Assembly (NCBI GenBank): GCA_027486835.1
Contig: JAIXOJ010000010.1
Location: 1 to 64,000, forward strand
DNA length: 64,000 bases
DNA from: Chitinophagaceae bacterium
GTDB lineage: Bacteria > Bacteroidota > Bacteroidia > Chitinophagales > Chitinophagaceae
Direction of reading: 5' to 3'
In this document: positions 12,050 through 47,838 of the stretch, in pieces
Layout: the number at the start of each line of letters is the position of its first letter
Position numbering within the stretch: the stretch's first letter is position 1
Notes under the pieces: model-generated
What the model saw: only the letters and a program-made list of their open reading frames with translations
Databases searched by the model: none
Told to the model about the DNA's origin: nothing
Position numbers and translations under genes: made by a program

Positions 12050-12295
12050 TTGTCCGAGCGTTGGACAGCCTGCTGCAAGGATGTTTTGAGTTGTCCGATT
12101 GTCGGACAGCCTGCTGCAAGGATGTTTTGAGTTGTCCGAGTGTCGGACAGCCTGCTCCAAGGATGTTTTGACTTGTCCGAGCGTCGGACAGCTTCCTGCA
12201 AGGATGTTTTGAATTGTCCGAGTGTCGGACAGCTTCCTGCAAGGATGTTTTGAATTGTCCGAGTGTCGGACAGCCTGCTGCAAGTATGTTTTGAG
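12050..12295. repeat. 41-bp tandem repeat array C with perfect dyads
   Basis: Six units start at 12050, 12091, 12132, 12173, 12214 and 12255, so the period is exactly 41 bp. Most units hold the dyad GTCCGA-GTG-TCGGAC (variants GCG, ATT and a T-for-C change in the first unit), separated by a spacer with GCCTGCTGCAAGGATG or GCTTCCTGCAAGGATG. A partial seventh start is seen at 12295. The array fills the space between the DUF6261-like gene and the GH2 gene. Because 41 is not a multiple of three, the long minus-strand frames across it are by-products of the repeat. Confidence 0.92.
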
Positions 12296-12355
12296 TTGGA
12301 TAAAGCGTTTATTTGCTTTGTTAACCTTGTATTTATTAGTGTGAAACTTAGTTTA

Positions 12356-15184
12356 ATGATAAAAAGCAGTCCCCTTCTTTATTGTGTAACCATTCTCATT
12401 TGTTGTTGTCTTCCGTTTGTTATAACGGCTCAAAATGCACCTACAGAAACCCTGTCACTCAACAAAGGCTGGCGTTTTTTTAAAGGCGATATTCCTTTTC
12501 CAGAAATAATTGGGCATCGAATGACCTATCAGAGTGCTAAAGCCGGCAAAGCTTATGGGGCAGCAGCTCCAGATTTTGATGATAGCGAATGGAGAATAGT
12601 TGCTTTGCCTCATGATTGGGCGGTAGAAAACCCAATTGATTCTACAGCAAACGTGGCACAAGGATTTAGAAAAAGAGGGATAGGCTGGTATAGGAGAAAT
12701 TTTAAACTAGATAAAAAAGACCGAGGAAAACACCTTGAAATTCAACTAGATGGCATCGCTACACATTGCACCATTTGGTTTAATGGCACCATGCTCCATC
12801 GCAATTTTTGCGGCTACACCTCCTCCTATATAGACATTACAGCCTACGCAAAATTTGGCGATGAAATCAACAATTTATCTATTAGGGTGGATGCCAGTGT
12901 TCAAGAAGGGTGGTGGTACGAGGGTGCTGGAATATATCGGAACACTTGGTTGGTAAAACGTTCGCCCGTACACATTATTACGGATGGTGTTTATGCGCAT
13001 CCAGTAAAGAAAGAAAACAATTCTTGGGAAATACCTGCTGAAGTAACGCTCTATAACATAACCAAGCAAAAGAAAAATGTGAGTGTTGAAGTGACTTTAT
13101 TTAATAAATCAAATCAAGAAATAACGCGTGCAAGTACTAACCTTAGCATACTTCCATTGTTAGAAAATAGTGCGCAACTTTCCTTAACCGTTTCTAATCC
13201 CCAGCTTTGGTCTTTGGAAACGCCAACGCTTTATAAAGTAAAAACTGAAATAAAAGAAAACGGCATACTGGTAGATCAGTTGACCACCCATTGTGGTTTT
13301 AGAACCATTGAATTTACTGCCGATTCAGGATGTTTTCTCAATGGCAAATACCTAAAAATAAAAGGTGTTTGCAATCATCAGGATATGCCTGCTGTAGGTG
13401 TTGCAGTACCAAATTCGCTATGGGATTTTCGGATTCGTAAATTGAAAGAATTGGGTTCCAATGCTTATCGTTGCGCACATCATCCCCCAGCAAAAGAATT
13501 CTTGGATGTCTGTGATAGTTTGGGCTTTTTGGTGATGGGAGAAAATAGGAATTTTAATACTTCGCCAGAATATATACGCCAATTGCAGTGGATGGTGCGT
13601 AGAGATCGCAATCATCCAAGTATTATGCTTTGGTCAGTTTTTAATGAGGAGCCAATGGAGGGGACGGAAAATGGCTATGAAATGGTTCGCAGGATGAGTA
13701 CTGAAGTGAAAAAATTGGATACCACAAGACCAGTGATGGCGGCTCAATTAGGCGGGCATTTTGAACCCATTAATGTATCGCAAGCGGTGGACTTGGTGGG
13801 CTTTAATTATAAAATGCAGAACTACGATAAGTTTCATTCCTTAAATCCCAAGAAACCCATTACAAGTTCGGAAGACGTTTCTGGGCTAATGACACGAGGG
13901 GAATATAAAACCGATAGGAGTAAAAATATCCTTGAAGCATATGACACTGAAAAACCAGGATGGGGAAACACCCACAGGGAGGCATGGAAAATGATTGGCC
14001 CTCGCAAGTTTGTAGCAGGTTGTTTTGTATGGACAGGCTTTGATTATCGTGGCGAACCAACCCCTTTTGTATGGCCATCGGCGGGTTCTTTCTTTGGTAT
14101 TATGGATCAATGTGGGTTTCCAAAAACAGCCTATTATCTCCATCAAGCACAATGGATAGACAACAAACCCATTTTACACTTAGTGCCACATTGGAACTGG
14201 CCAGATGATAGCATCGGTAAACCAATAAGAGTAATGGCACTTACCAATGCCGAGCAGGTGAAATTGTATTTAAATGGGAAATTGATTGCAGAAAAACAGA
14301 TTGACCCTTATGATATGGCAACATGGAATGTACCCTATCAACCAGGAAAATTAGAAGCCATTGGCTATAAAGGGGGTAAAGAAATGGCTCGGTTTAAAGT
14401 AGAAACCACCGTTGAACCAGTAGCCATTCAACTCATACCCTTTAGAGGCACGATGAAAAATGATGGTACTGATGCGATTCCTGTAACTGTGCAAGTAATT
14501 GACAAAAAAGGAAGGGTGGTACCCACCGCCAACAACCCCATTGAGTTTAGTATCAATACATCTGGAAAAATATTGGGCGTAGGCAATGGCGATCCCAACA
14601 GTCATGAAGCCGATACTGCGGCAAAACGTCATTTATTTAACGGCTTGGCTCAAGTGACCATCCAATCGATAGAAGGGAAATTGCAACCAATCGAATTAAC
14701 CGCCACTTCCCCCAATTTAAAACCGGCTACAATAACAGTTGCGCTTTTGCCAACGGAATCCTTGAATTATGTGGCTATTGTACATCCAGAATTAATAATT
14801 GACAAATGGCGCATTTCACCTTATGCTAAAGCTAAACCCGACCCCACGCAAAAAATTGCTGATAACGACATGAATAGTTGGGCACCAGTAAAACCAGGCT
14901 CACTGCAAAACTTCGACGAAAGTCAGTTTGCTATGTATCGAGCAAAGTTTACCCCTTATATGGCTCAACAAAAACAAGGCGGGGTGCTCCAAATAAACCA
15001 GGTTGCAGGTAAAGCCGAGGTTTGGATTGATAATAAATTGGTTTTCACAAAAGCATCATTTGAACCAGCAGCGATTCAACTGTCCTTGGAGCCATCGGAT
15101 AAAGAAAGGGAAATTACCATTCTCATAGAAAGAGCGGCAGGAAAGCTAGCTGGATTGGGTGGGGTAGTTAAGATTGGACAATAA
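12356..15184 (+). CDS. GH2 family exo-glycosidase (beta-galactosidase-like)
   Basis: A 942-aa exported retaining exo-beta-glycosidase. I take the ATG at 12356, which gives a signal peptide ending FVITAQ; the frame is open further upstream into the repeat array. The order is sugar-binding jelly roll (NKGWRFFKGD, LPHDWAVE, WWYEGAGIYRNTWL), immunoglobulin-like domain, and TIM barrel with acid/base E431 in WSVFNEEP and probable nucleophile E506 in ITSSEDVSG. The FVWTGFDYRGEPTPF segment and C-terminal immunoglobulin-like domains follow, the last resembling a galactose-binding fold. This layout is typical of Bacteroidota GH2 enzymes with C-terminal DUF4982-like parts. Beta-galactosidase is the commonest activity, but glucuronidase or others are possible. 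It follows the 41-bp array, which may lie in its leader or promoter region. Confidence 0.88.
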   Translation: MIKSSPLLYCVTILICCCLPFVITAQNAPTETLSLNKGWRFFKGDIPFPEIIGHRMTYQSAKAGKAYGAAAPDFDDSEWRIVALPHDWAVENPIDSTANVAQGFRKRGIGWYRRNFKLDKKDRGKHLEIQLDGIATHCTIWFNGTMLHRNFCGYTSSYIDITAYAKFGDEINNLSIRVDASVQEGWWYEGAGIYRNTWLVKRSPVHIITDGVYAHPVKKENNSWEIPAEVTLYNITKQKKNVSVEVTLFNKSNQEITRASTNLSILPLLENSAQLSLTVSNPQLWSLETPTLYKVKTEIKENGILVDQLTTHCGFRTIEFTADSGCFLNGKYLKIKGVCNHQDMPAVGVAVPNSLWDFRIRKLKELGSNAYRCAHHPPAKEFLDVCDSLGFLVMGENRNFNTSPEYIRQLQWMVRRDRNHPSIMLWSVFNEEPMEGTENGYEMVRRMSTEVKKLDTTRPVMAAQLGGHFEPINVSQAVDLVGFNYKMQNYDKFHSLNPKKPITSSEDVSGLMTRGEYKTDRSKNILEAYDTEKPGWGNTHREAWKMIGPRKFVAGCFVWTGFDYRGEPTPFVWPSAGSFFGIMDQCGFPKTAYYLHQAQWIDNKPILHLVPHWNWPDDSIGKPIRVMALTNAEQVKLYLNGKLIAEKQIDPYDMATWNVPYQPGKLEAIGYKGGKEMARFKVETTVEPVAIQLIPFRGTMKNDGTDAIPVTVQVIDKKGRVVPTANNPIEFSINTSGKILGVGNGDPNSHEADTAAKRHLFNGLAQVTIQSIEGKLQPIELTATSPNLKPATITVALLPTESLNYVAIVHPELIIDKWRISPYAKAKPDPTQKIADNDMNSWAPVKPGSLQNFDESQFAMYRAKFTPYMAQQKQGGVLQINQVAGKAEVWIDNKLVFTKASFEPAAIQLSLEPSDKEREITILIERAAGKLAGLGGVVKIGQ

Positions 15185-15744
15185 AATTAAATGTAGGAGG
15201 TTGGTGTTGGTAAATGCAGGTATTTGCAAAGAGGATAGTGATACAATAATGATATAAACCATCCACCTCCTCGGAATTAACCATCACTTCTTTACAGCCA
15301 CTGCCGAATTTAAAGCACTTATGCTTTCGAACACTTCGTAAGCAGTTTTGCTTTGGGGGGAGTAAGTTTTTTTGCAGGCAACGCGTCGCATACTGCTGCA
15401 CAATATGATTTCCTAGTTTTGGTATGTCTTACAAATTGATTTAGCTAAGGCAGTCATTTTCGAAAAAAGATGAGATTATTTGGGATGGTAAAAAATAAAG
15501 AATTGCTTAGCATTTGAATGATAAATGGGGGCATAAAAGTTTTCGTTTTGCCCCTCGCCCTTGGAGAGTGGTTGGGGTGGGGTTTTAATTAATTACTGCG
15601 AAAAACTTTTATACACCCAATGGGTGTAGCGTGCAGCGCAAACAGAGATTAGACAACTTCATTAGAAATTAAGTATAGGGTAAGTTCAAACCTATAGTTA
15701 ACGATATTTCAGTTCCATTCCTTGTACCAGTAATATTTTAAATT
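15185..15744. other. Intergenic region, 560 bp, no supported gene
   Basis: No gene is convincing here. On the minus strand, 15284-15391 encodes a short coding-looking stretch of 35 codons (MRRVACKKTYSPQSKTAYEV...) that might be a gene fragment, but it matches nothing I recognise. Around 15550-15585 a CT-rich then G-rich stretch (CCCCTCGCCC ... GGGGTGGGG) resembles common Bacteroidota intergenic filler. No promoter box of good quality was found before 15745. Confidence 0.5.
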
Positions 15745-18700
15745 ATGAAAAGAGTTTTACAGCGTTTCATTCTTTCCTTATTATTTCTATCAGTTATTGA
15801 TCTTGCCCATGCGGGATTTACGCCAACTTTCAACAATGGTGTGGTAAAGTATGCCCCCGCTACAGTTTCAGCCGACCAGAAAGTTTGGGCAAATGCTTGG
15901 CAGGCCAAGATTGGAGGTGCTTTTAATCCCGCTGTAAATCTATTTGGCGCAACAGCTCCTTACGATTATGTCAATTCAGCACGTTTTGCAATGTCTTTGC
16001 TCGACGAAGGCGATCCAGCAGAGCAAACAAAAGCTTTCAACATCATTTCGGCCTTATTGGCTATTCAGGATGTAAATGGGCAATGGAATGGTGCTTGGGA
16101 AGATTTTATAGGGGTAATTTTAATTGATATTTATACCCATCATGGCAGCAAGTTTTCCGTTAGTGTGCTGGATAGTATGGAAACAGCCATTATTCGTTCG
16201 GCCACAAAATGTCAATCAGAAAATACAAGGGTTGAATACACCAATATTTCTCTCATGGAGACCAACTGTGCCTTTTTGGCTTCTCAAATTTTTGACATCC
16301 CATCGATGAAAATATTTGCCCAAAATAAATTCGAAGAGATTTATTATTATAACATGGCACAGGGCACATTCAGCGAATACAACAGCAATAATTATACACC
16401 TGTTTTTCTGGATGATTTAATGCGAATGGAGCAATACATGGTGCGACAAACGGACTTAGATAAAATAACAGATCTTAACCGATTGGCTTGGAAAATGATT
16501 GGCGAGCATTGGCACAAACCATCGGGGCAATGGGTAGGGCCAATTAGTAGGGCTTATTTTACTCGAACCGACAAATTGTATGGTAACTGGTACGGCGTAT
16601 TGTATGTGGCCTCTGGTGGGTTGATAGATTATGGCGATCGCTTTAATCAATTTGATGTAAAATTGGATTATCATATTCCTACGGATATATTGAATACCTA
16701 TTTCATTAACCCCGTTTATCCAGCAATGGTTGTTGACCAATTTCGGGCATTTGAGAAAGATGGGCCACAAACAGTTGCCACCAATTATATGACCAGCAAT
16801 TTTTCTTTTTCGAGCTACGATTGGTCAAGCTGCTGGGAGCAACGGAGATTTTGTGTTTCTTATTGGGGTACTAAGCTGTCACCAAGATATTTAGCAGTTA
16901 GATTCCTTCATGATAATAGGGATTTTGGTGCTGCCATTTTTAATTCCAAACAAAACAAGAACAGTGTATTGGCAGGAATAAACATAGCCACCAATTTTGG
17001 GGATACGCACATCAGCACGGATAATATCAATGGGGATATTACTGCCACCGATTTGCGATTGAGGTTTGAGTTGGGTACCCCTTCCTCAGTAAGTAGTATC
17101 ACTTTACCAACCAATCGTTTCGACCCATTTACTTTCATAACGAATGGTATGACCATAAAAATCCATCTATTTAGTGCTGGATTTTCGGGTTATCCAGATG
17201 GCTATTGGGTAAAAGGGAGTAACAGCACAACTGCTTGGGTGGACTATGTGGTATATAGCGGCAGTTCAACAACCATCAATTTCAATGCAATGGCCGATGC
17301 TTCCTTAGGTTTCACTTTGTCGGCAAGTGCTTTAAGTTCAGAGATACCCACTGCTTCAAACGCAACATCTACTATCACCTCGGGAGTTATGACCGCCAAC
17401 TGGAATGGAATGACCTTACAAATGCCCGTAAAGCCTGCTCCAATTACTAAATTGGCAGTTACTAGTGTTTCAATTGCCCCAGCAACTGTGTCCTTGCGCA
17501 AAAACGAAGCTATCCAATTAAAGGCTGAAATCATTCCTTCCAAAGCAACCAATCAAATGGTTACTTGGTCAAGCAGCAACCCTACTGTAGCAACAGTTAA
17601 TAGACTTGGTTTGGTATCAGCTATTGGTTTGGGTAGTACTACCATAACTGCCATTACCCAAGATGGCAATAGGATGGCAACCAGATCTGTTTTGGTTTCT
17701 GATTATACTTGGACAGGTGCAAGCAATACCAATTGGAGTTTACATTCTAATTGGTTGGATAGTGTACCTCCTCCTGCTGCGGTTGATATTCTTATACCTA
17801 GTGGATTATCAAGATACCCAGTACTAAACAGAAATGATACCATAGGAAAATGTAAACTTCAAGCGGGTGCCAGTATGGATATCAATGGATATACCCTCCA
17901 TATTAAAGATTCAGTTTTGGGTACGGGTACTTTCATCGGTTCAGCCCAATCGAATTTGGTTTTAAATGGATCAGGAACTATTTATTTATCCCAATTATCC
18001 AATGGAAATTCCAATGCGTTGAATTCGATTATCATCAATACCACTGGTAGAATTACTTTAGGAAATTCCTTGCAGGTAACTAAACAAGTCAAAGTAACAG
18101 CAGGCATTTTGGCATCATCTGGAAATCTTACCCTAGTTGCTAGTAGCAACGGCATAGCTAGGATACCTACATTGGGGGGTACTATCACAGGAAATGTAAT
18201 TACCCAATTGTACATACCTGCCAAAGGCGCTAGGAAATATAGTTTTATTGGTAGTTCTGTAGCTCAGCCAATTAGCAATGCCTGGCAAAAACAGATGTAC
18301 ATAACAGGAAGTGGCAGCGGTGGGGCAGTTTGCGGTAGCACCAATGGCAATGGTGGAACAACAGACCGATTCAACAGCAATGGATTTGACAAAACGCCAA
18401 CCGATACGCCCAGTATGTTTGATTACAACGCCATCCAAATCAATGGAACTAGATGGCTAACAATACCCAATACCATTAATACCAACCTAACTCCTGGAAA
18501 GGGTTACCGATTAAATATCAGAGGCGATAGAAATGCAAGCACTTGTTTGGATCAATTGTCGAGCATTACACCAACAGCACCAACAGCAGTTGTTTTAAAC
18601 GCAACTGGTGTATTAACCCAAGGCGACCTTACAATTAATCTGAATGACACCAATAAACACCTCTATACTTTGTTGGCCAATCCCTACCCTAATCAAATCA

Positions 18701-19923
18701 GCTTCGCCGCATTAAAGGCTTCCAATACAACCATCAACAATAAGTTGTGGACTTATAGTCCTTATGGTAATGGTAACTACACCACTTTTTCTAATGGCTT
18801 AGTAAACAATCCAGCCGCAGGATACAACGGTACAAATGCTGATTATATTGCCATTGGGCAAGCTTTTTTTGTGGAAGCCAACAAAACAGGTACCAGCCTA
18901 ACCTTTAAGGAGTCCCATAAAATTGATTCTTTAGTACCCAACTTTCAATACTTCGGTTTCAATAACCTTCAAGTACTGAGGTTAGGATTTTATGATACGG
19001 CCAATATTAAGTTAGATGAATGCGCGTTGCGTTACAACACTTTTGGTTCAAAGAATTACAATGAAGAATGGGATGCCATTGCACTAGGAGGGGGCAATCA
19101 ATCGCTTACTAGTACAAAAGATGCTTATTCGTTAGCCATTGCTACACGGTCTTTAACCAATTCCACCGATACTATTCATTTAAATGTTAGTAGTAATAAA
19201 GTTGGAGTATTTAATCTACAAATTCAGGAAATAACAGGCTTTGATGCCAGCACCCAATACCAATTAAAGGACAATTATTTAGGCAAAACACAATCCATTG
19301 ATTTAAACAAGGGCTATCAGTTCACCATAACTAACGATACAGCAAGTTTTGGAGGCAACCGTTTTGTTTTATTAATTGGCAAATCCACCCCTCTCCCGAT
19401 AGTATTTAGCTATATCAATTGTAAAAGAGAAAACAGCAAGGCAGTAATTAATTGGGAAGTCAATGAGGAAAAAGAAATAAGCCACTTTATTGTGGAAAGA
19501 CAAATAGGGGATAATTCTTTTAAAAGTATCGGTACAGTTAAGCAAAGAGGTGCTGCTAATGTTGGATATGAGTTTATAGATGCAGAACTGCCTTCCTATG
19601 GATTATTCTTTTATAGAGTAGTGGCAATAGAAAAAAACGGGAATAAGGTGTTTAGTAAAACGGTATCGTTGAATAATCCTTCTATAACGTCCGTTGAAAC
19701 AAGTATTTATCCAAATCCGGCAAAGGATAGATTATACCTAGCAGGTAAAGGAATCGTTTCAGTTGCGATAGTTGATGAATTGGGCAGGGTAGTGGTAAGT
19801 AAAAAATTGAATGGATTTGTAAATACATCAATGGATGTATCAGCTTTGATAAAGGGATGCTATGTTGTGTTAATTGAAACAATGAGCGGCAATTGGGAAA
19901 GAAAAAAGTTGCTTAAGGATTAA
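15745..19923 (+). CDS. Unrecognised toroid-type enzyme fused to T9SS multidomain tail
   Basis: A 1392-aa exported protein (signal peptide ending LAHA). Residues about 24-560 are a domain shared with the proteins at 20132 and 39848: a helical N-terminal half and a beta-rich second half. Conserved blocks are EYNSNNYTPVFLDD (E211), GEHWHKPSGQWVGPISRAY (H255, H257), CWEQRRF and AWVDYVVYSG. Residues about 575-650 are a bacterial Ig-like (Big2) domain. From 656 (WTGASNTNWS) comes the long module also found in the protein at 1258. A classic type A T9SS sorting domain begins at IYPNPAKDRLYL (about 1320) and ends KKLLKD. Helical toroid plus beta-sandwich with conserved His/Tyr suggests a polysaccharide lyase, but this is an inference and no known family is assigned. 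Confidence 0.75.
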   Translation: MKRVLQRFILSLLFLSVIDLAHAGFTPTFNNGVVKYAPATVSADQKVWANAWQAKIGGAFNPAVNLFGATAPYDYVNSARFAMSLLDEGDPAEQTKAFNIISALLAIQDVNGQWNGAWEDFIGVILIDIYTHHGSKFSVSVLDSMETAIIRSATKCQSENTRVEYTNISLMETNCAFLASQIFDIPSMKIFAQNKFEEIYYYNMAQGTFSEYNSNNYTPVFLDDLMRMEQYMVRQTDLDKITDLNRLAWKMIGEHWHKPSGQWVGPISRAYFTRTDKLYGNWYGVLYVASGGLIDYGDRFNQFDVKLDYHIPTDILNTYFINPVYPAMVVDQFRAFEKDGPQTVATNYMTSNFSFSSYDWSSCWEQRRFCVSYWGTKLSPRYLAVRFLHDNRDFGAAIFNSKQNKNSVLAGINIATNFGDTHISTDNINGDITATDLRLRFELGTPSSVSSITLPTNRFDPFTFITNGMTIKIHLFSAGFSGYPDGYWVKGSNSTTAWVDYVVYSGSSTTINFNAMADASLGFTLSASALSSEIPTASNATSTITSGVMTANWNGMTLQMPVKPAPITKLAVTSVSIAPATVSLRKNEAIQLKAEIIPSKATNQMVTWSSSNPTVATVNRLGLVSAIGLGSTTITAITQDGNRMATRSVLVSDYTWTGASNTNWSLHSNWLDSVPPPAAVDILIPSGLSRYPVLNRNDTIGKCKLQAGASMDINGYTLHIKDSVLGTGTFIGSAQSNLVLNGSGTIYLSQLSNGNSNALNSIIINTTGRITLGNSLQVTKQVKVTAGILASSGNLTLVASSNGIARIPTLGGTITGNVITQLYIPAKGARKYSFIGSSVAQPISNAWQKQMYITGSGSGGAVCGSTNGNGGTTDRFNSNGFDKTPTDTPSMFDYNAIQINGTRWLTIPNTINTNLTPGKGYRLNIRGDRNASTCLDQLSSITPTAPTAVVLNATGVLTQGDLTINLNDTNKHLYTLLANPYPNQISFAALKASNTTINNKLWTYSPYGNGNYTTFSNGLVNNPAAGYNGTNADYIAIGQAFFVEANKTGTSLTFKESHKIDSLVPNFQYFGFNNLQVLRLGFYDTANIKLDECALRYNTFGSKNYNEEWDAIALGGGNQSLTSTKDAYSLAIATRSLTNSTDTIHLNVSSNKVGVFNLQIQEITGFDASTQYQLKDNYLGKTQSIDLNKGYQFTITNDTASFGGNRFVLLIGKSTPLPIVFSYINCKRENSKAVINWEVNEEKEISHFIVERQIGDNSFKSIGTVKQRGAANVGYEFIDAELPSYGLFFYRVVAIEKNGNKVFSKTVSLNNPSITSVETSIYPNPAKDRLYLAGKGIVSVAIVDELGRVVVSKKLNGFVNTSMDVSALIKGCYVVLIETMSGNWERKKLLKD

Positions 19924-20131
19924 GGGAATGGATCAACAAAAGTGTAATCATCTTTAGTAGCGGGAAAAATAAGGTTAGCAAATCCTGTAAAGATTTTGGA
20001 ACAGAAACTCAATAGATGTGATGAAGGATTGTCGCTTATTGAATGAAAAGTTGCATAGGAGTTGGCTGTGAAGAGGAAGTCCAAGATTTATGGATAAGAT
20101 AAATTATTAAAACACAATTTCGCTGATATAA

Positions 20132-21934: not shown

Positions 21935-22070
21935 TAAGCGGTTACAATCTTTTGGGCTTTTAATATTCCATATAAACTAAACTTAGACAACTGCTTGGCT
22001 GCTTCTTTTAGATAATTGTAAATAGCACTTTGGAAAGTATAAAAGGTTTGAACATAATACCGAATTTAAA

Positions 22071-24266: not shown

Positions 24267-24351
24267 GTTCAGCTTCCCTAAGGCCAATCGGCAATCATTA
24301 ATGGATGGGTTACTCACACGTAGTAAATTGTTGCATTTTTGGCTTGAGCGA

Positions 24352-24541
24352 ATATTCTGCAACAGATTTGTTGCAGAATATGAATTGAAAGGGAATTTGC
24401 AACAGCTTTGTTGCTTTTTTATTGTTTCTAAAGTATTTGCAACAATTTTATTGCAACGCTTTTGTTGCAAATTTTCTTTTCGTTTGAAATTAGCAACATT
24501 TTTGTTTCTTTTTTTTGCTTCGAAGTAAATTTGCAACAAAA
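24352..24541. repeat. Cluster of TTGCAACA dyads (array E)
   Basis: At least eight copies of TTGCAACA or its complement TGTTGCAA lie in 190 bp. The first pair forms a perfect hairpin (24352-24381) with 13-bp arms ATATTCTGCAACA around GATT. The second (about 24399-24414) is GCAACA-GCTT-TGTTGC followed by six T, which could terminate transcription of the upstream gene. A third dyad is TTGCAAC-GCTTTT-GTTGCAA at 24451-24470. Single half sites stand near 24437, 24491 and 24531. The last half site ends about ten bases before the ATG at 24551. Spacing is irregular, unlike the 21-bp arrays. Operators for the adjacent HTH-like protein are the simplest reading. Confidence 0.75.
24399..24420 (+). terminator. 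Possible intrinsic terminator
   Basis: The arms GCAACA and TGTTGC around GCTT are followed by TTTTTT. It lies about 130 bp after the stop codon of the gene at 22071. The stem is short and is part of the TTGCAACA cluster, so the T-run may be accidental. Confidence 0.4.
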
Positions 24542-24550
24542 GAACTTGAT

Positions 24551-25069
24551 ATGATCGAACTGAGAGATGCTACTGGGCTTACGCAACAATTGTTGGCAGA
24601 CTTTGCAAATATCTCAAGAGGGGTTTTAGCCATGGGCGAATTGGGCTTGAGAGCATTACAAAGCAATGTGATGCAAAAAATCATATCACTTTGGTCGCAT
24701 GTGCCACCATCGGCTGATCCAGCAAATCTACCTTTGATAACTGACGTACTCGCAAAGGAATCAATAGAAGCAGATAGGAAAATAGCTGATTATAAAGAAT
24801 TTTGTAGATTGAAAGCAGCCAACAAGCAATTGGAATTAGACAAAATGATCCTTAAATACCAACAAAGCCTTAGGCTGCATCAAACGCTCAGGGCTTACGG
24901 CAATCAGTTGCCACAAAACCAAGAAAATGCAGCTACCATTTCTTGGATAGATGGAGCCACTTCTTTTGCTACCCTAAAATTGGCGGACAATAGTCTTGCT
25001 AAACAGCAGTTGTTAGCACTCGAAATCAGGCAATTGCTATCCATTGTTTCTGATACAAAACCTGTTTAA
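24551..25069 (+). CDS. Small XRE-like helix-turn-helix protein
   Basis: A 172-aa soluble protein beginning MIELRDATGLTQ; the frame is open upstream but the ATG at 24551 is the natural start. Residues about 8-35 (TGLTQQLLADFANISRGVL, then AMGELG) fit an XRE-type helix-turn-helix in which the usual ErG turn reads GELG. The remainder (about 60-130) is charged and helical, with a likely coiled coil around KAANKQLELDKMILKYQQSL. It lacks a signal peptide and is the only non-enzyme gene between the genes at 22071 and 25187. The dense TTGCAACA cluster directly upstream suggests it binds there and controls itself or its neighbours. This is an inference. Confidence 0.65.
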   Translation: MIELRDATGLTQQLLADFANISRGVLAMGELGLRALQSNVMQKIISLWSHVPPSADPANLPLITDVLAKESIEADRKIADYKEFCRLKAANKQLELDKMILKYQQSLRLHQTLRAYGNQLPQNQENAATISWIDGATSFATLKLADNSLAKQQLLALEIRQLLSIVSDTKPV

Positions 25070-32714: not shown

Positions 32715-32747
32715 ATAGATAAGTGAGATTTTGTAAAATCAAGTTTA

Positions 32748-35131: not shown

Positions 35132-35524
35132 AGAAATAAAAAAGACTCTAATTATTATCATACCTATACTATTATTAATGGTTGCCTTTTTCAAAAAAAG
35201 CAAGATAGGAATTCGGTCAATCCTATAACTTCTGATGTATGTGTTTCTATCCCTTATAAATTGACCAGCCCCTTTTAAGATAAGGCCGCTGGTTTTGATA
35301 CCAATGCTTCTAGAGGTGGTACTATAAATGAAATAAAAACTTTTAAGTTGTCTGTAAACAATAAGCTTGCTGGTGAATATACCGTTCCGGTGAAAACGGG
35401 CAGCTACCATAAATGGAATTACGCAGAAAATATGGGTACAATCACTTTTAAAAAAGCGGGTTTAAACCTTATTACTTTGCATATTAGCGGTGGGATGAAT
35501 TATGCATATCTCGAAATAAATTAA
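35132..35524 (+). pseudogene. Remnant of a carbohydrate-binding-like C-terminal domain
   Basis: One frame reads as coding from about 35132 to the TAA at 35522-35524, broken only by an in-frame TAA at 35276-35278. After the stop come SVNNKLAGEYTVPVKTGS, W-N-Y-A-E-N, then TFKKAGLNLITLHISGGMNY, then AYLEIN. The ending (KAGxNxITLxxSGGxNxxYLEI) is the usual close of CBM6/CBM35-type beta-sandwich modules. No start codon, signal peptide or catalytic part is left, so this is probably the tail of a lost enzyme. It sits 30 bp before the GH31 start. Confidence 0.65.
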
Positions 35525-35554
35525 GGGCATATAAAAAAAAATACTATTAAACTA

Positions 35555-38251: not shown

Positions 38252-38342
38252 AAAATGAATAGCTGTAAGCAATACATTTTCCAAGGTTGGATTTTCGTTT
38301 TATTGTTAGGTTATTGTGAAGTGAAATCTAAAAACCATTTCG

Positions 38343-39860: not shown

Positions 39861-41656
39861 GTTTTTTGATGAGGAGAAAAGTTGTTGTTACAACCTTCGC
39901 ATTGTTTGCTATTGCCAATTTGGCGTTCGGTCAGGATTATCAGGATAAGTACATTAAATACTCCTCAGCAAAATTGAGCGAGGAGCAAAAAGACGTACTG
40001 AAAAAGGAAATCAAGGGTGTTAACTACGATGAAAAAGAAGCGATGGTGTTGACCAAGATTACCGAATGGCAATATCATATTGATACAGTTGGGGTTACTT
40101 ACCACAGGGTAGGAAATACTTTCGGCTATGCCCGTATGCTTTTGAATACTTTAGAGGATAAACACATCGACCGAGCCTGCAAAGCCATTTTGGCCAGTAT
40201 TGCGTTGCAGGATGTGAATCCCAATTCAAAAACTTTTGGCTTGTGGCCTTATTTTAAAGAAGAGCCGTTGGCCACCAAAAGAACGCCACCAGATTTCAAT
40301 ATGGCCGATTTTTTCAGTGTTACCCTTTTAGACATTTATATGGGTCACAAGCAACGGTTGCCAGATAGCGTGGTGGCAAAAATTGTGGCTTCTTTAAAAT
40401 TGGCTTCTCGTTGTATTGAGAAAAGAAACCAAGGTCCCAGCTATACCAATATTGCTATTATGGGTACGTATGTTACTTACATGGTATCCCATTTGTTTGA
40501 TATGCCTGATATGCAAGCCTATGCTGCCAAAAGGTTGAAAACTTTTTACGATTATACCATCGAAAAACAAGGATTTACTGAGTATAATAGCCCCACTTAC
40601 ACTATTACGGCATTGGACGAAGTTTCTAGGATGAAACAACACATAATAGAGCCAGAGGCAAAAGCAATGGTGGACAAAATAAACGATGTGGCATGGAGCA
40701 TCATTGCACGTCATTATCATAAACCATCAGGTCAATGGGCTGGACCGAATAGCAGGTCTTATAGTACATTCTTAAAACAAGAAAAATTATATACAATCTT
40801 GAATTTGGCCTCAAAAGGAAAAGTGAATCTTGGGGTAAGAAAGTTTGATGCCAATGAAATCTTGTTGGAATATGAAATGCCTGAAAAGTATTTCTCTTAT
40901 TTTAACGCTCCCGTATATCCTCGTTTGGAAAATGATGTGTTTGAACCCAACGAACCTAAAGTGACTGGAACAACTTTGCTGGAAAAAGAATTCGTGCTTT
41001 CCACCGCCAATCGTTCTTGTTTATGGAACCAACGTCGTCCGTTTTTAGCCTTCTGGGGTACTAAAGAAAGCCCTCGATATTTACAGTTCCAATTTGTCAA
41101 AAACAATTACGACTTCAGCTCTGCGGCAATTTTCACTCATCAAGATGGCACCAATGTTTTGGCAGGGGTGAATCTGTTTTTGTTCGGTGGGGATAAACAT
41201 ATTGGTATAGATAAAATTAAAACTGGAAAATTCAAGGCCAAAGATTTGCGCTTGCGATTTAGGTTTGGTGGTACAAAATCTTCCGACGATTTGAACATAC
41301 CCAACAAAGAAAATGAACCATTCCAATTCAAATTAGACGATCTTAATTTCCAATTCCACCTCTTTCAAGCAAGTCTTGACAAACAAAAAGGCTTTTGGGA
41401 AAAAGGCGGCGATGGAAAAGATGCTTGGATAGATTATGTGTTATATACAGGGGCGGAAAAAGAATTTGATTTGAATACCGTACAAGAAGCTGTGTGGGCA
41501 TTTACTTTTTCAATGGGTGAAAAAGGAAAAAAGCTGCCTGCTTCAAAACCGGAATTCGATAGTAAAGACAAAACATTTAATGCCAAATGGAACAATTTGA
41601 CCATTACTTTTCCAACCAATCTATTGCCATTGGGCGGATTTCCCAAAAATTTGTAA
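39848..41656 (+). CDS. Third member of the unrecognised toroid-type family
   Basis: About 602 aa from the ATG at 39848; an ATG at 39869 (MRRKVVVTTFALFAIANLAFGQ) gives a more compact signal peptide. It is collinear with the protein at 20132 along its whole length. Invariant blocks: YTNIAIMGTYVTYM, EYNSPTYTITALDE (E245), RHYHKPSGQWAGPNSRSY (H289, H291), NRSCLWNQRRPFLAFWG, NYDFSSAA, KAKDLRLRFRFGG, EKGGDGKDAWIDYVLYTG, and the ending NLLPLGGFPKNL (NLLPLGGYPKNL in the copy at 20132). It overlaps GH28 and is followed after 28 bp by the beta-helix gene, so it belongs to the same operon. A lyase or hydrolase acting on the same polymer is inferred. Confidence 0.8.
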   Translation: MERLSFLMRRKVVVTTFALFAIANLAFGQDYQDKYIKYSSAKLSEEQKDVLKKEIKGVNYDEKEAMVLTKITEWQYHIDTVGVTYHRVGNTFGYARMLLNTLEDKHIDRACKAILASIALQDVNPNSKTFGLWPYFKEEPLATKRTPPDFNMADFFSVTLLDIYMGHKQRLPDSVVAKIVASLKLASRCIEKRNQGPSYTNIAIMGTYVTYMVSHLFDMPDMQAYAAKRLKTFYDYTIEKQGFTEYNSPTYTITALDEVSRMKQHIIEPEAKAMVDKINDVAWSIIARHYHKPSGQWAGPNSRSYSTFLKQEKLYTILNLASKGKVNLGVRKFDANEILLEYEMPEKYFSYFNAPVYPRLENDVFEPNEPKVTGTTLLEKEFVLSTANRSCLWNQRRPFLAFWGTKESPRYLQFQFVKNNYDFSSAAIFTHQDGTNVLAGVNLFLFGGDKHIGIDKIKTGKFKAKDLRLRFRFGGTKSSDDLNIPNKENEPFQFKLDDLNFQFHLFQASLDKQKGFWEKGGDGKDAWIDYVLYTGAEKEFDLNTVQEAVWAFTFSMGEKGKKLPASKPEFDSKDKTFNAKWNNLTITFPTNLLPLGGFPKNL

Positions 41657-41684
41657 ACGTTTCAATTAGTGATAAAATAGAATT

Positions 41685-44600
41685 ATGAAAAATGGTGTAT
41701 TTTCTACAGAAAGTTTAAAACGGATGTTGATCAAATCCATCTTTTTGGTGGGTATGATAGTGGGGTTAGGTTGTGTAGCGGATGCCCAGCCTTATTATGT
41801 GGATCCCGTTAATGGTAGTGATACCTATAATGGGTCAATGAATACGCCCTTCCAAACCGTCAATAAAGCTCGGACCGCTGTTCGTGCCTATTTGGCAACG
41901 CTTACCACGATGAATTCCGATTTGTATGTGTATCTGAGAGGAGGTACTTATTCGCTAACTGCTACGCTAAACTTCACAGGTTTGGATGGGGGCAAGAATG
42001 GCTTCAACGTTATTTACAAAGCTTATAATAACGAGAAACCTATTGTTAATGGCGGCAAACAAGTTACGGGCTGGACAAAAGTGACGGGGCAGGAGTATTA
42101 TGTTGCCAATGTGCCCCTTACGGGAACAATTACGTATCCCAATTATTTCAGACAGATTTGGGTGAACGGTGCTAGAAGAATGCAAGCCAAAAGCGATTTT
42201 ATCAACGTTTATCCCAAACCTTTTGACAATGTTGTTTCTACACAAGTGGCTGATGGCTATATTGTAAAAAAAGCGGCCATCAAACCTTACACTAATATTT
42301 CCGACATACGAATATTTCAAACGGGCAAGTTCAAGCATGTGGAACAAATCGTGAATAATATCGCTAATATCAGCGATTCGGAACAAGTGTTGATGATGCG
42401 CAATTCGGCGTATGACAACTGGACCAAAACCTACGTTTACAATAATCTGAACCAAATACAGGTGGTGAATGCTTTTGAGGAATTAGACGAGCCAGGTGAA
42501 TTTTATTTGAATAGAACTACTAGAAAATTATATTACTACCCACAGCCGGGCGAAAACATGTCAACTGCCGAGGTGGTAGTGCCTTCCACGGAATATTTGG
42601 TAAAACTTACGGGTACTAGTGCCAGCAGGGTGCAGAACCTTCAATTTGAAGGCATTGATTTTAAATATGGCAATTGGACGGGTGCTAACCTTACTTCCAA
42701 GGAAATTGGTAGAAGCCAGGCCGATTTGTATTCGGACTATAGCAGCATAGAAGGACAAATTTCGATGATTTACGCACAAAATATTGCCCTTAGGAACTGT
42801 CGCTTTGAGCAGTTTGCCAGTACAGGTATTTATATCATGTCAAACAATAACAATATTACTATTGAAGGGAATGTTTTTAAAGACTTAACAGCAGCAGCAG
42901 TAATTATTGGCGTTGGCAATAGTGGTGCTGTGATATTTGATGCATCTGTCAATCGGGATATTTTGATTAAAAACAATGTAATAAGAAATATAGGGGCAGA
43001 CTTTTTCCAAGCATCGGGTATTTATGCCAATGCCACCAAAAATTTAAGCATCATTCATAATGATGTTGCCGATGTTGCTTATTTTGGAATCAACCAACGA
43101 TATGGCAATTCCATTGCTGAAATAACAGGTGCTTTGGCAGTTGCCAATACAGGAAACACCTTAATCCAATACAATAAAGTCACCAATTTTGGTACAGCAG
43201 CCAAGTTAGGTTTTGGCGTGGGAGATGAAATAGCTGGGGTTTATTTTTTTGGGGTAAGAACCTCCAAAGTCCAATACAACTATGTGCAGTATGGTGGGAA
43301 GGATGAACACTTGGAAGGGGCTTTTCGCCAAGACCAATATGGTTGTGGCAATTATTGGGAAAACAATGTTGCAGATTGTAAACCTGCATCCCGCTCTTTT
43401 TCTTGGTACGATGCCTATAATACCCAATCGGATACCTTGTTGTTTGCCAACTGCTATGCCAATGTGTTGGGACAATTTAAGCCAACAGCCAATGCTGATA
43501 CGGTCAATATTTTCTATGAACCCAATGCCCCTGCTTGGTCTGCCGGTGCACAATCCATTATTAACAATGCGGGAGTTGAACCTTCTTATCAGTACTTATT
43601 AAATGAATTTGGCGACGGCACCAATATTGCCCCAAAAGCCACTGTAACCAGCTCTTCCAATTTTTCTACCACCTACAGAGCAACCAATATTACAGATAAA
43701 AAAGTAGCCACTTTTTGGAAACCTGCCGCGGGCAACGAGACCACAGGTTCTTGGATTCAATTGGCTTTCCCTCAGCCCATTGCCATCAATAAATTACAAT
43801 TGGTATTTGAATATAATAATGCCAATCCAGCTAATCGGCAATTGTTTGAAGTACGTGTATCTAATGATCCCAATTTTAATGCTTATAATATTCTTGGTGG
43901 CCAACCCGCAAAGCCTTATCCATATTTGATAACCTACCTTGAAACAACGGTTCCCATAGCCTACAACACGATTGATTTATTGGGTATCGATACTTTTGGA
44001 TACAAGTACATCCGGATTTTTGGTCGCTCCATGAGCTGGGCTGAATGTAGGGTTTATGGAAAAGAACAAGCCGTTCCCCCAACTAATTATTACAATAATT
44101 CGTCCTTGGCCTTTTTGCCCTATATCCCGCTTTCTACGCCAGTGGAAAAAGAAATATGGAGCATACAAGTGGAAGATACCACCGATAATTCAAGGGTTTA
44201 TTTTGGTAACAATGTAAAGTATTGGAACCAAACTGGCGGCATGAAATTCGGAACAGCTACCGTTTCGGGTGGAATTGCCAATTTAACTGGCGGCACTTTT
44301 ACTTTCAAAGGGGGTATTTATAGAAACGAGCGTACAGGCTTTAAAATAAAAATTACGGAAAATACAGCAACCACCACGCATTGGATTGCCATTAGAGCCG
44401 CTACTGTTTTGAGCGGGCTTACCGATCAAGATGATTATTTAATCAGTATGAGACAACTGACCACGGGACTATATAATACCAATTTGCAAATACAACGCAG
44501 GAATAGAGATGGCACTTTCAATACTTTTTATGGTTCTAGTGGCAGCTTAGGTACTTCCGTGCTACGGAACACCACCCTTTTTTCTGCTTTTACCACCGTT

Positions 44601-45584
44601 GTATTTGAAACCGTCAATAGGGCAAACGGGTTGGGAATTATAATGAAACTGGGTTCGGATACCGTATTTAATTTTACCGATATTGGTGCGAAACGTGTTA
44701 CCACCCCAGGCTATTTCGTGTTTAGGCCCGGCAATACAAATGGTACCATGGAAATTACCGACATACCAGTTACGGGCATTCAATTATCGCCAACCGATAC
44801 CACCATCAATGTAAACCAAACCATCCAATTAAACCCAGTTGTATTGCCTGAAAGCGCCACGATAAATAAAGTGTATTATACATCTTCCAACCCAGCCATT
44901 GCTACGGTAAATAGCCTTGGGCAAGTGAAAGGACTGGCCGTTGGACAAACCATTGTAACGGTCACTACGAAAGATGGTGGTTTTGTGGCTTCCATTAAAG
45001 TGAACGTCCAAATCCCGCTTTCCATAGCCAAAATTGCGTTGTCGGCCACTTATGGCAAGCAACAAGTGGTATTGAAATGGAATTCGATTAGTGATAAGGA
45101 AATTGCCAGTTTTGAAATTGAGCAAGCTGAGAAAATAGGGAATTTTAAGTATGCTGGTTCGGTTAAAGGTGGAACAGCTTTAAATGCCAATTATTCCTTT
45201 ATCCATGAAGGCGTTGCACAAGGGCTGCAATATTTTTACAGGGTAAAAGCAGTGTTTAAGGATGGAACGATTGTCTATAGCAATTCTATTGTAGTTATCA
45301 TACCAACCAATCCATTAAAAATAACCGTAAGCCCTAACCCAATCCATCAGAATATGGTAAAGCTCAATTTTGAAAATGTGCCATTGGATACCTATCAATG
45401 TAAACTCTACGATATTTCAGGTAAAACATTGGTTGAAAAAAACATTTTTCACACGGAAAATACCCATCAGTACCAGTTGGGGATTCCTGCCTCGGTTTTG
45501 GCAAACAAATTTGTGTATTTGGTTATCCAATCACTCAAAGCAGATGCGCCCATATTTGAGCAAAAACTGGTTGTTGGTAAGTAG
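41685..45584 (+). CDS. GH141-like beta-helix protein with CBM32-like domain and T9SS tail
   Basis: A 1299-aa exported protein; the signal peptide is best from 41724 (MLIKSIFLVGMIVGLGCVADAQ), but the ATG at 41685 is in frame. Residues about 25-640 are a right-handed beta-helix with the start YYVDPVNGSDTYNGSMNTPFQ, VNGGKQVTGW and ELDEPGEFYLN typical of GH141-like (alpha-fucosidase/xylanase) and related helix enzymes. Then come an F5/8-type (CBM32-like) domain (about 646-795, NIAPKATVTSSS...), a beta-sandwich, a Big2 domain (1028-1108), a fibronectin-III-like domain, and a type A T9SS tail (SPNPIHQNM...). The N-terminal part is closely related to the gene starting at 62489. GH141 membership is by pattern only. 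Confidence 0.75.
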   Translation: MKNGVFSTESLKRMLIKSIFLVGMIVGLGCVADAQPYYVDPVNGSDTYNGSMNTPFQTVNKARTAVRAYLATLTTMNSDLYVYLRGGTYSLTATLNFTGLDGGKNGFNVIYKAYNNEKPIVNGGKQVTGWTKVTGQEYYVANVPLTGTITYPNYFRQIWVNGARRMQAKSDFINVYPKPFDNVVSTQVADGYIVKKAAIKPYTNISDIRIFQTGKFKHVEQIVNNIANISDSEQVLMMRNSAYDNWTKTYVYNNLNQIQVVNAFEELDEPGEFYLNRTTRKLYYYPQPGENMSTAEVVVPSTEYLVKLTGTSASRVQNLQFEGIDFKYGNWTGANLTSKEIGRSQADLYSDYSSIEGQISMIYAQNIALRNCRFEQFASTGIYIMSNNNNITIEGNVFKDLTAAAVIIGVGNSGAVIFDASVNRDILIKNNVIRNIGADFFQASGIYANATKNLSIIHNDVADVAYFGINQRYGNSIAEITGALAVANTGNTLIQYNKVTNFGTAAKLGFGVGDEIAGVYFFGVRTSKVQYNYVQYGGKDEHLEGAFRQDQYGCGNYWENNVADCKPASRSFSWYDAYNTQSDTLLFANCYANVLGQFKPTANADTVNIFYEPNAPAWSAGAQSIINNAGVEPSYQYLLNEFGDGTNIAPKATVTSSSNFSTTYRATNITDKKVATFWKPAAGNETTGSWIQLAFPQPIAINKLQLVFEYNNANPANRQLFEVRVSNDPNFNAYNILGGQPAKPYPYLITYLETTVPIAYNTIDLLGIDTFGYKYIRIFGRSMSWAECRVYGKEQAVPPTNYYNNSSLAFLPYIPLSTPVEKEIWSIQVEDTTDNSRVYFGNNVKYWNQTGGMKFGTATVSGGIANLTGGTFTFKGGIYRNERTGFKIKITENTATTTHWIAIRAATVLSGLTDQDDYLISMRQLTTGLYNTNLQIQRRNRDGTFNTFYGSSGSLGTSVLRNTTLFSAFTTVVFETVNRANGLGIIMKLGSDTVFNFTDIGAKRVTTPGYFVFRPGNTNGTMEITDIPVTGIQLSPTDTTINVNQTIQLNPVVLPESATINKVYYTSSNPAIATVNSLGQVKGLAVGQTIVTVTTKDGGFVASIKVNVQIPLSIAKIALSATYGKQQVVLKWNSISDKEIASFEIEQAEKIGNFKYAGSVKGGTALNANYSFIHEGVAQGLQYFYRVKAVFKDGTIVYSNSIVVIIPTNPLKITVSPNPIHQNMVKLNFENVPLDTYQCKLYDISGKTLVEKNIFHTENTHQYQLGIPASVLANKFVYLVIQSLKADAPIFEQKLVVGK

Positions 45585-45605
45585 GAAATAGTTGAAAAAG
45601 TCGCA

Positions 45606-45639
45606 AACTTTTATAGGGTTTCAAAACCCTATAAAAGTT
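45606..45639. repeat. Perfect 16-bp-stem hairpin
   Basis: The arms AACTTTTATAGGGTTT and AAACCCTATAAAAGTT are exact complements around a 2-nt loop. It follows the gene ending at 45584 and has no T-run, so it may end transcription weakly or may be a dispersed palindrome. It has the same outline as the hairpins at 46861, 46948 and 46993. Confidence 0.85.
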
Positions 45640-45675
45640 CATTCCCTCTTTAAAGAAAATTTATCTGAATAGTAT

Positions 45676-46830
45676 ATGTATAGAATCAAGTTGTTGTTAG
45701 TGTTGTTTGCCTTTTGTTGTTGGCAAGGGTATGGTCAGAAAAAAGCTGGTTCGGGTACTGACTATTTTAAGGATTTGCCCAAGAAGGCATCCCCTAAAGA
45801 AATCGGAAAAAAAATAGCCGAACGATTTATGGCAACCCCGCATACCAATTTTGGAAATAAGAACGGAAAAAAACCAGACCATATCACTTATCCAGACGTA
45901 TGCACTTGGTACGGTGCTTTCCAGTATGCTAAATTGACCAAGGATGCCGATTTATCCAAACGGCTATTGGAGAAAACCTCCTTATTGCTAGGCAGTGAAT
46001 CTAATTTGGTACCTATACCCAAAAATGTGGACTATACCGTATTTGGCGTATTGCCTTTAGAGGCTTTTATCCAAACAAAAGATTCAGCTTACTTTAAATT
46101 GGGTATTAAAAGCGCGGATGCACAGTTTAAAACCCTATCTACTGAGGAATACGACAAACTACCGCAAGAAGTAAAAAACTGGTACAAAGAAGGATTGAGT
46201 TGGCAAACAAGGTTTTGGATGGATGATATGTATATGATTACTTCCATACAAGTGCAAGCCTACCGTGCCACCAAAAACGAGCAATACATCAACCGTGCAG
46301 CAAGGGAAATGGTGGCTTATTTGGATACGCTTCAAAACCCCGATGGATTGTTTTTCCATGCGCCCGATGTGCCGCATTATTGGGGTAGGGGAGATGGTTG
46401 GTTAGCCGCAGGCATGGCCGAATTGTTACAGTCGCTTCCTAAAAACAACCTCTATCGTCCCAAAATAATGAGTGGATATTTAAAAATGATGCAGGCTTTA
46501 TTGGCTAATCAAACCGAATCTGGTTTGTGGAGGCAATTGATAACCGATAAATCGGCATGGGTAGAAACCTCTGGCAGTGCCATGTTCACTTTTGCGTTTA
46601 TCACGGGCGTAAAAAATGGATGGTTGCCCGCCTCTACCTACGGAAAAGCTGCTCAAAAAGCGTGGATTTCCTTGACAGGATATTTGGATGAAAATTTCGA
46701 TTTAAAAGAGATTTGCGAAGGCACGAACAAAAAGAACGACCGCCAATATTATTTGGATAGAAAGCGCATCACCGGCGACTTGCATGGTCAAGCCCCTATG
46801 TTGTGGTGCGTGAATGCATTGTTGCAATAA
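45676..46830 (+). CDS. GH105 unsaturated uronyl hydrolase
   Basis: A 384-aa exported protein (signal peptide ending GYGQ), the standard single-domain GH105/GH88 size. Key blocks: RFWMDDMYMITSIQ (D183, D184), FFHAPDVPHYWGRGDGWLAAGM (W236), WVETSGSAMFTFAF and LHGQAPMLWCVNALLQ. It should remove the unsaturated uronate from lyase products in the periplasm. It differs strongly from the GH105 modules at 7192 and 8943, so the three probably handle different oligomers. A perfect hairpin lies between it and the upstream T9SS gene. Confidence 0.92.
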   Translation: MYRIKLLLVLFAFCCWQGYGQKKAGSGTDYFKDLPKKASPKEIGKKIAERFMATPHTNFGNKNGKKPDHITYPDVCTWYGAFQYAKLTKDADLSKRLLEKTSLLLGSESNLVPIPKNVDYTVFGVLPLEAFIQTKDSAYFKLGIKSADAQFKTLSTEEYDKLPQEVKNWYKEGLSWQTRFWMDDMYMITSIQVQAYRATKNEQYINRAAREMVAYLDTLQNPDGLFFHAPDVPHYWGRGDGWLAAGMAELLQSLPKNNLYRPKIMSGYLKMMQALLANQTESGLWRQLITDKSAWVETSGSAMFTFAFITGVKNGWLPASTYGKAAQKAWISLTGYLDENFDLKEICEGTNKKNDRQYYLDRKRITGDLHGQAPMLWCVNALLQ

Positions 46831-46860
46831 TTGCAAAATCCTATAAACGTTTGGAATTAC

Positions 46861-46893
46861 AACTTCCCGAAAGTTTCAAACTTTCGGGAAGTT
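46861..46893. repeat. Perfect 16-bp-stem hairpin, copy 1
   Basis: The arms AACTTCCCGAAAGTTT and AAACTTTCGGGAAGTT pair perfectly around a single C. It stands 30 bp after the GH105 stop codon. The surrounding ~87 bp (from the TCCTATAAACGTT block through the hairpin to GAAAGAAAAAACCT) is repeated with few changes at 46926-47000. Confidence 0.85.
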
Positions 46894-46912
46894 TTCGAAA
46901 GAAAAAACCTAC

Positions 46913-47025
46913 ATAGGATTTGAAATCCTATAAACGTTGGGAATTACAACTTCCCGAAAGTTTCAAACTTTCAGGAAGTTTTGGAAAGAAAAAACCTTTA
47001 TGTGGTTTCAAACCCTATTAAGGTT
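46913..47025. repeat. Palindrome cluster, copies 2-4
   Basis: Three further inverted repeats follow: ATAGGATTT-G-AAATCCTAT (46913-46931), a second copy of the 16-bp hairpin with one change (46948-46980), and an imperfect one of the same 33-nt outline, AACCTTTATGTGGTTT-C-AAACCCTATTAAGGTT (46993-47025). They fill the space between two convergent genes, so they may act as a two-way terminator. Their repetition points to a dispersed REP-like element. Confidence 0.75.
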
Positions 47026-47033
47026 ACACCAGC

Positions 47034-47411
47034 TTAAACCCCACCCATTTTGCCTTGAACAATTTCTTTATAAATCTTCAATTCTGCTTCTAATGCTGCA
47101 ATGCGATTGTCTTTTTCTTCCATTTCCTTATCCACCAATGGATTGGGAATTGCAGGATGCGCTTTGCTAAAAGCCATGGCCAATTCTGCTAAAAAATTAT
47201 AATCGATGGCAGCACCAACCCTCCATAAAATGGCTGTTTGAACAGAAGGTTGTTTTACATAATCCTTTACTACTGAAGGGCTTACGTCTATTTGTCTAGC
47301 AACCTCGGCTTTCGATATTTTTATATGCTTAAATTGTTTTGCAATCATTGCACCGATATTAGGGCAACTATCTTTACTACTTACTAGGTATTTTCTATTA
47401 ACCGGCGACAT
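47034..47411 (-). CDS. Small helix-turn-helix protein with coiled-coil tail
   Basis: A 125-aa soluble protein and the only clear minus-strand gene. Residues about 18-75 (IGAMIAKQFKHIKISKAEVA, then RQIDVSPSVVKDYVKQPSVQ) look like an XRE-type helix-turn-helix, and ILWRVGAAIDYNFLAELAMA resembles the helix after it. Residues about 96-120 (EMEEKDNRIAALEAELKIYK) form a coiled coil, probably for dimerisation. The gene is convergent with GH105 and divergent from the beta-mannosidase gene. The 21-bp repeat array lies directly upstream of its putative promoter, which makes array binding or autoregulation a reasonable but unproven idea. Confidence 0.75.
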   Translation of the reverse strand: MSPVNRKYLVSSKDSCPNIGAMIAKQFKHIKISKAEVARQIDVSPSVVKDYVKQPSVQTAILWRVGAAIDYNFLAELAMAFSKAHPAIPNPLVDKEMEEKDNRIAALEAELKIYKEIVQGKMGGV

Positions 47412-47450
47412 CTTTAACGAATTTGATATTAATAATACATAAATTTAGTT

Positions 47451-47458
47451 CAAAGTTA
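47451..47458 (-). promoter_or_regulatory. Candidate -7 box for the minus-strand HTH gene
   Basis: On the minus strand this reads TAACTTTG, an exact TAnnTTTG match, about 40 bases before the ATG at 47411. The nearest TTG upstream is too close to be a canonical -33 element. The 21-bp array begins about 24 bp further upstream, at a position where bound protein would influence this promoter. Confidence 0.45.
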
Positions 47459-47481
47459 CAAGATTTAATCAATATATAGAC

Positions 47482-47838
47482 GTCTTAGAACGCTGTAGAG
47501 GCATCTTAAACACTAGCGTGGTGCTTAAATACGACGGTTTAGTAGGTTAAAATGTATTTATCGAAGTCTTAAACCCCTGTATCATTGTCTTATAATGCTA
47601 TGAAAGTAGCTAATACAGCTACGATTAGGTTTTAAACTACTGTGTCCACGTCTTAGATAACGCTGTCTTGGTTTTAGACGACTTCGTTAACGTCTTGAAC
47701 GACGACGTTCACGTCTCAGACGACGATGTTCACGTCTTGAACGTCTTCGTCCTAGTCTTAAACGTCTTCGTCCTAGTCTTAAACGACTCTGTCTACGTCT
47801 TGAACGACGATGTTCACGTCTTAGGCTACTTTCATTCG
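47482..47838. repeat. 21-bp tandem repeat array D
   Basis: About sixteen to seventeen units can be followed. Those from 47650 to 47817 (eight units) are in exact 21-bp register and well conserved, each opening with GTCTTRAA or a close variant. Those from 47482 to 47649 are decayed, with occasional 20- or 22-bp steps. In the conserved units a dyad is centred at the same place (between unit positions 12 and 13). Examples are GAACG-ACGA-CGTTC, TGAAC-GACGAT-GTTCA, ACGA-CT-TCGT and ACG-TCTT-CGT, so ACG-N4-CGT is the common core. The array lies between divergent genes (HTH protein and beta-mannosidase). Confidence 0.88.

Follow-up and report, generated by a model that had tools for sequence, protein, structure and literature searches.

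Small genes of Bacteroidota that lie beside tandem arrays of short inverted repeats (dyads) are the subject of this analysis, which departs from a 64,000-nucleotide stretch of a Chitinophagaceae bacterium (hereafter the window; contig C39, positions 1-64000, of a source genome of 6.4 Mb in 219 contigs). The genes concerned encode a protein of the DUF6261 family and two further proteins, P0002 and P0003. In three unrelated families the gene is found beside an array, suggesting a widespread, apparently undescribed class of gene-plus-array modules in Bacteroidota; the initial annotation of the window had known of no described system of such form, and we likewise found no description of the class in the open-access PMC literature. 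The explanation that we favour, and regard as reasonably probable, is that these are self-addressed DNA-binding modules, probably autoregulated via cooperative assembly of the protein on its array. Such protein-specific modules are the best fit to the data, and a common factor that reads array architecture remains a real rival, mainly because arrays without a partner gene (solo arrays) exist.

For DUF6261, an array lies within 800 bp at 40 of 50 distinct loci in other genomes, compared with 12 of the 517 control genes (p=4e-41), and is upstream of the gene in 40 of the 40 array-bearing loci; across the modules, an array most often precedes its gene by 20-500 bp. Several DUF6261 loci that fail as array-bearing still have their best lag at 41-42, with degenerate units, and in array-poor genomes the arrays are still located at DUF6261 genes. 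The source genome is array-rich (control rate 72/419), and there 10 of the 10 DUF6261 genes examined have an array. P0003-like genes do so in 13 of 15 cases (7/7 in the source genome and 6/8 in others), so that the enrichment of arrays beside homologues, which the initial annotation had proposed as a check, is borne out for both families. In an unbiased all-versus-all comparison of array-near genes, the highest ranks went to P0003-like genes (5/5), DUF6261 (6/8) and a new family (3/3). The array census is a contig sample, partly selected for carrying these genes and biased in that respect. Initially, the source genome yielded DUF6261 in six copies, along with six homologues of P0003 and several of P0002; the DUF6261 and P0003 copies have arrays of differing sequence near the gene, with a period of 41-42 or 21-22 bp, and the P0002 family profile matches 14 places. 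The distribution of DUF6261 is patchy and multi-copy (12 of 392 genomes, with up to 11 copies in one). One DUF6261 gene (L034) stands on a contig titled Limnohabitans, which is not of the Bacteroidota and is probably misbinned. Identical DUF6261 arrays occur across same-genus records (L143 and L030, L146 and L026, L147 and L029, L150 and L028).

The pairing extends to further proteins. The array-adjacent YIP family (229 aa), composed of a helical domain and a beta-sandwich matching FN3 structures, was found in 17 of the class's 198 genomes; a 21/42-bp array accompanies the gene at 20 of 23 testable loci (including 17 of 20 in other genomes) and precedes it in the loci listed. Downstream of each of the two HU-DNA_bdg+DUF4469 genes in the source genome lies a 22-bp array whose dyad is of the TAGGCTA type. 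Other array-adjacent small proteins include some that fall in no known family and one that carries a CarboxypepD_reg domain, and proteins of unknown function lie directly at phased arrays at L261:17394-18005, L262:5571-6785, L262:317-1255 and L295:4723-5613, some with an FN3/immunoglobulin (Ig)-like tail. The L261 family (203 aa) was too rare in the sample to serve as a phylum-wide test. Helix-turn-helix (HTH)-like or HU domains are present in three protein groups. Profile comparisons of the DUF6261, YIP and L214 families detected no relationship, and hidden homology between families was dropped on that ground.

The window contains the following genes and arrays, the latter given without strand; the three 21-bp arrays and the 41-bp array were located with Tandem Repeats Finder (TRF).

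1-238: 21-bp array, unit TTGACGGTCATTTAAGG, at the contig end, belonging to a dispersed array family.
437-668: 21-bp array, unit AGTATTTGATGCAATACTCAA, with no small gene adjoining in the window.
11267-11992, + strand: DUF6261 protein, 241 aa from ATG, all-helical (Pfam PF19775, E=1.6e-32).
12043-12298: 41-bp array of six dyads TTGTCCGA-N2-GTCGGACAG, 92% matches.
24359-24538: GCAACA-N4-TGTTGC dyads clustered at a 40-bp step; about 12 bp separate the end of the cluster from the P0002 ATG.
24551-25069, + strand: P0002, 172 aa, N-terminus HTH_3-like (E=0.0028, under the Pfam cut-off).
47034-47411, - strand: P0003, 125 aa, N-terminal half HTH-like, with weak HTH_24/HTH_3 hits (E=0.015-0.03).
47482-47838: 21-bp array upstream of P0003, lag 21 identity 0.57-0.71.

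The positions and periods of the three 21-bp arrays and the 41-bp array agree with the initial annotation, and the genes at 11267, 24551 and 47034 are, as it had stated, the only ones in the window shorter than about 300 aa (open reading frame list, read by eye). Its claim of an inverted repeat in each unit held in part: column shuffling of each array by itself gave significant dyad symmetry at 12043-12298 (p=0.015) and at 47482-47838 (p=0.011-0.019), but not at 437-668 (p=0.10) or 1-238 (tested as 1-231; p=0.45).

The DUF6261 protein of the window passes the curated PF19775 cut-off (113 bits versus 27), and its AlphaFold model (predicted local distance difference test score 91) matches nothing in PDB or BFVD at E<=1e-3 and is without a known DNA-binding fold. 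Its array begins 51 bp past the stop codon, that is, downstream of the gene. The cluster before P0002 (24352-24541) holds eight GCAACA/TGTTGC sites where 0.23 are expected; five of them form two dyads and a third half in exact 40-bp steps (24359/24369, 24399/24409 and 24439), and the spacing is therefore near four turns there too. The exact 8-mer TTGCAACA has only four occurrences in the cluster, and P0002 homologues have the cluster variants TTGCCACAA, TTGTGACAA and TTGCAGCAA at the equivalent position. P0003 (family alignments A2 and A5) likely has a C-terminal coiled coil; directly 3' of its gene, 46836-47025 holds about two copies of an 87-bp unit with an inverted repeat ACTTCCCGAAAG...CTTTCGGGAAGT. 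Since the window starts at the contig end, a gene adjoining arrays 1-238 and 437-668 could lie outside the window, beyond the contig break. A duplicate of the 437-668 array, along with what adjoins it, is found at the C55 contig end; this stretch (L297, G000:C55:56000-63063) is a near copy of window 1-5337, including both 21-bp arrays and a 1361-aa homologue of the first gene.

Across arrays, dyads recur every 20-22 bp, that is, every two turns of the helix. The DUF6261 array unit is 40-42 bp long and tends to contain two dyads, A and B, in alternation: in 19 of 54 arrays (about 3 expected by position count) the second-ranking dyad is offset from the best one by half a unit, therefore A and B follow each other every 20-21 bp. 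Dyad symmetry reaches p<=0.05 in 32 of these 54 arrays, and the combined values are p=1e-12 for YIP arrays and p=7e-5 for P0003-like arrays. In Parabacteroides distasonis, five TCTTAGGCCTAAGA-type dyads are spaced 41, 42, 41 and 42 bp, with dyad columns 80% identical between units and the remaining columns 34%; the dyads were kept while the spacers diverged, therefore selection maintains both dyads and phase, a pattern that is not expected from recent slippage. Over 46 arrays, conservation is likewise higher in dyad columns than in the rest (0.78 versus 0.67, p=1e-4). In a P. distasonis record named plasmid, which is probably a chromosomal fragment, a DUF6261 gene with a phased dyad array adjoins der and era (L204:3381-3560).

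Array similarity is greater within than between families for DUF6261 and P0003-like arrays, and in close DUF6261 pairs it rises with protein identity (Mantel rho 0.35, p=0.012). Arrays turn over faster than the proteins: unit similarity is 0.51 at 65-80% protein identity (shuffled mean 0.43), and at L026/L030 the gene and downstream DNA are 86-89% identical with an array region that is not alignable. P0003-like arrays contain 4.3 CTA/TAG-type tetramers (a motif chosen post hoc) per unit where 1.2 are expected; in the other two families the figure is 0.5-0.65. DUF6261 columns 71-90, which lie in a predicted helix holding the nearly invariant D77, R80 and D81, correlate best with the arrays in close pairs (pointwise p=0.003, corrected p=0.06) and are a lead, suggestive of a specificity helix. 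An N-terminal arm, promising on visual inspection of a small number of pairs, was rejected as the determinant (permutation p=0.38). The covariation between array and DNA-reading helix that the initial annotation had envisaged is thus seen for protein identity in close pairs, and falls short of significance for the helix. The window DUF6261 dyad is absent elsewhere in its own genome, with up to two mismatches allowed, and it is the one dyad for which 'private' holds; a trans regulon of this protein was rejected, the dyad being confined to its own array.

In the mechanism that we propose, a module would consist of a small putative DNA-binding protein and a nearby array of ~4 to 20 dyads that it reads. 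From the dyad spacing we infer that protein dimers would line up on consecutive dyads along the same helix face, forming a cooperative filament; for DUF6261, alternation of A and B means that each 20.5-bp step would carry half A and half B, fitting a protein that touches its neighbours at both ends. As the array usually lies upstream of its own gene, assembly may switch or limit that gene, giving a self-limiting, self-addressed nucleoprotein, and the FN3/Ig-like tails of several families might display a binding surface at the array. Any function beyond self-regulation might, at a guess, be local chromosome organisation or docking. A broader version, which we put forward as a tentative possibility, is a general self-addressed chromatin of Bacteroidota, in which unrelated small proteins, often helical with FN3/Ig tails, would sit in helical register on private, fast-evolving arrays and mark or organise chromosomal places.

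Several observations weigh against protein-specific modules. No DNA-binding domain is recognised in DUF6261 or YIP, the arrays of YIP genes have neither within-family similarity nor a common sequence theme, and the mapping of specificity to DUF6261 columns 71-90 is no more than suggestive. The array is downstream at the window DUF6261 gene, at two close paralogues in the same genome and at both HU+DUF4469 genes, and promoter control is therefore not the whole story. Only some of the 52 arrays in 860 kb of the source genome (a biased sample) are beside such genes, and G007 has 15 arrays in 180 kb with no DUF6261 or P0003-like match. The initial annotation had named identical arrays away from any such gene as evidence against its proposal, and this is in part what is found: many arrays are partnerless, and the 1-238 (1-231) array is dispersed, with copies on C44, C45, C55, C99, C137 and C183, several at contig ends and mostly beside surface-protein genes (the C44 copy is 226 bp upstream of the gene for a 296-aa protein). 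Certain solo arrays are similar to DUF6261-linked arrays along the full unit (66-76%). Of the 26 arrays in the 41-bp class, 11 are flanked by divergent genes, compared with 50 of the 212 intergenic regions, a hint of a regulatory role. In G362, a genome otherwise almost array-free, a solo 41-bp array lies between genes of 480 and 164 aa (L170:19089-19301), and same-genus G012 (L193-L203) is rich in heptamer repeats and in repeats of the AATTCGTG type, in addition to 21-bp arrays.

Solo arrays bear most on the view that one host factor reads dyad architecture and phasing instead of sequence, the small genes being frequent payloads of generic regulatory or contingency elements. Array sequences that are unrelated yet share a common design, many of them beside ordinary genes, would fit such a factor, as would array-rich G007 and the lack of a theme in YIP arrays; we nevertheless consider it unlikely, because DUF6261 and P0003-like arrays hold family-specific sequence signal, array similarity follows protein identity in close DUF6261 pairs, and arrays remain at DUF6261 genes in array-poor genomes. 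Selfish or plasmid-like modules, with arrays as iteron- or centromere-like maintenance sites and array diversity as incompatibility between copies, could account for the patchy, multi-copy occurrence of DUF6261, the quick divergence of paralogue sequences and the iteron-like 21-bp spacing. This origin appears distinctly unlikely, since replication, partition and transposase genes were not seen in the module and some DUF6261 pairs retain homologous flanks, that is, were inherited in place; searches gave no phage or viral-contig match and one weak plasmid-record hit, beside der/era, and hence no support for a phage or plasmid origin.

The dyads could also fold as hairpins, and transcribed RNA-hairpin arrays bound by the small proteins were considered. 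Imperfect arm pairs comprise 69 G-U and 79 A-C, therefore no selection for RNA pairing is apparent; these wobble counts favour DNA over RNA, and the strict 41/42 and 21-bp spacing has no RNA rationale. RNA hairpins, which we hold to be very improbable, were rejected on the wobble counts. Neutral slippage minisatellites that adjoin genes by coincidence would suit a repeat-rich genus in which units are often homogenised within an array, but the enrichment outside the source genome (p down to 4e-41), the conservation of dyads and not spacers, and intergenic array periods that cluster on 21 and 40-42 make this reading close to negligible and refute it as a full account.

If the modules are protein-specific, the DUF6261, helical+FN3, small HTH-like and HU+DUF4469 families would become one testable class, each with a candidate target DNA. 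The pairs would provide a natural library in which protein-DNA specificity changes from couple to couple, of use in studying the evolution of recognition, and one pair occurs in P. distasonis, a culturable gut species with the DUF6261 protein WP_011966849.1.

Known systems resemble the modules in part. As regards toxin-antitoxin pairs, the window neighbours are large and no small partner stands out among their open reading frames (neighbours not scanned for toxins), and hits to antitoxin models are weak only. PADLOC defence models gave one weak P0003 hit (E=0.013) and none for the remaining array-linked proteins, leaving an anti-phage defence system without PADLOC support. parS/ParB has clustered palindromic sites and a protein that spreads, whereas family scans of array-linked proteins found no ParA or ParB and the sites appear private per copy. 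REP/RAYT elements similarly place palindromic repeats beside a cognate gene, and the 1-238 array copies are dispersed; the modules differ in having no recognised Y1 transposase, in strict helical phasing and in a window DUF6261 dyad that is not dispersed. Iteron-controlled plasmid replicons share helically phased tandem repeats of ~21 bp (20-22) beside a putative binding-protein gene, whereas the modules are chromosomal, many per genome, without a Rep domain (no replication initiator among Pfam or NCBIfam matches of P0001-P0003) and built of dyad units instead of simple direct sites. The HU-DNA_bdg/HU-HIG/DUF4469 proteins of Bacteroidota are HU-like and Ig-like fusions, and both source-genome copies have a 22-bp array; to our knowledge no array partner has been described for them, and DUF6261 and P0003 carry no HU domain. 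Autoregulators with tandem operators are represented by MetJ, Arc and XRE-type phage repressors, in which a small DNA-binding protein, as is putative for the modules, has repeated dyad operators by its own gene and cooperativity is expected; P0002 and P0003 look HTH-like, on hits below the Pfam cut-off. In contrast to these repressors, some module arrays are downstream, DUF6261 and YIP contain no known DNA-binding domain, and unrelated folds obey one spacing rule on arrays that are longer and seemingly sequence-private.

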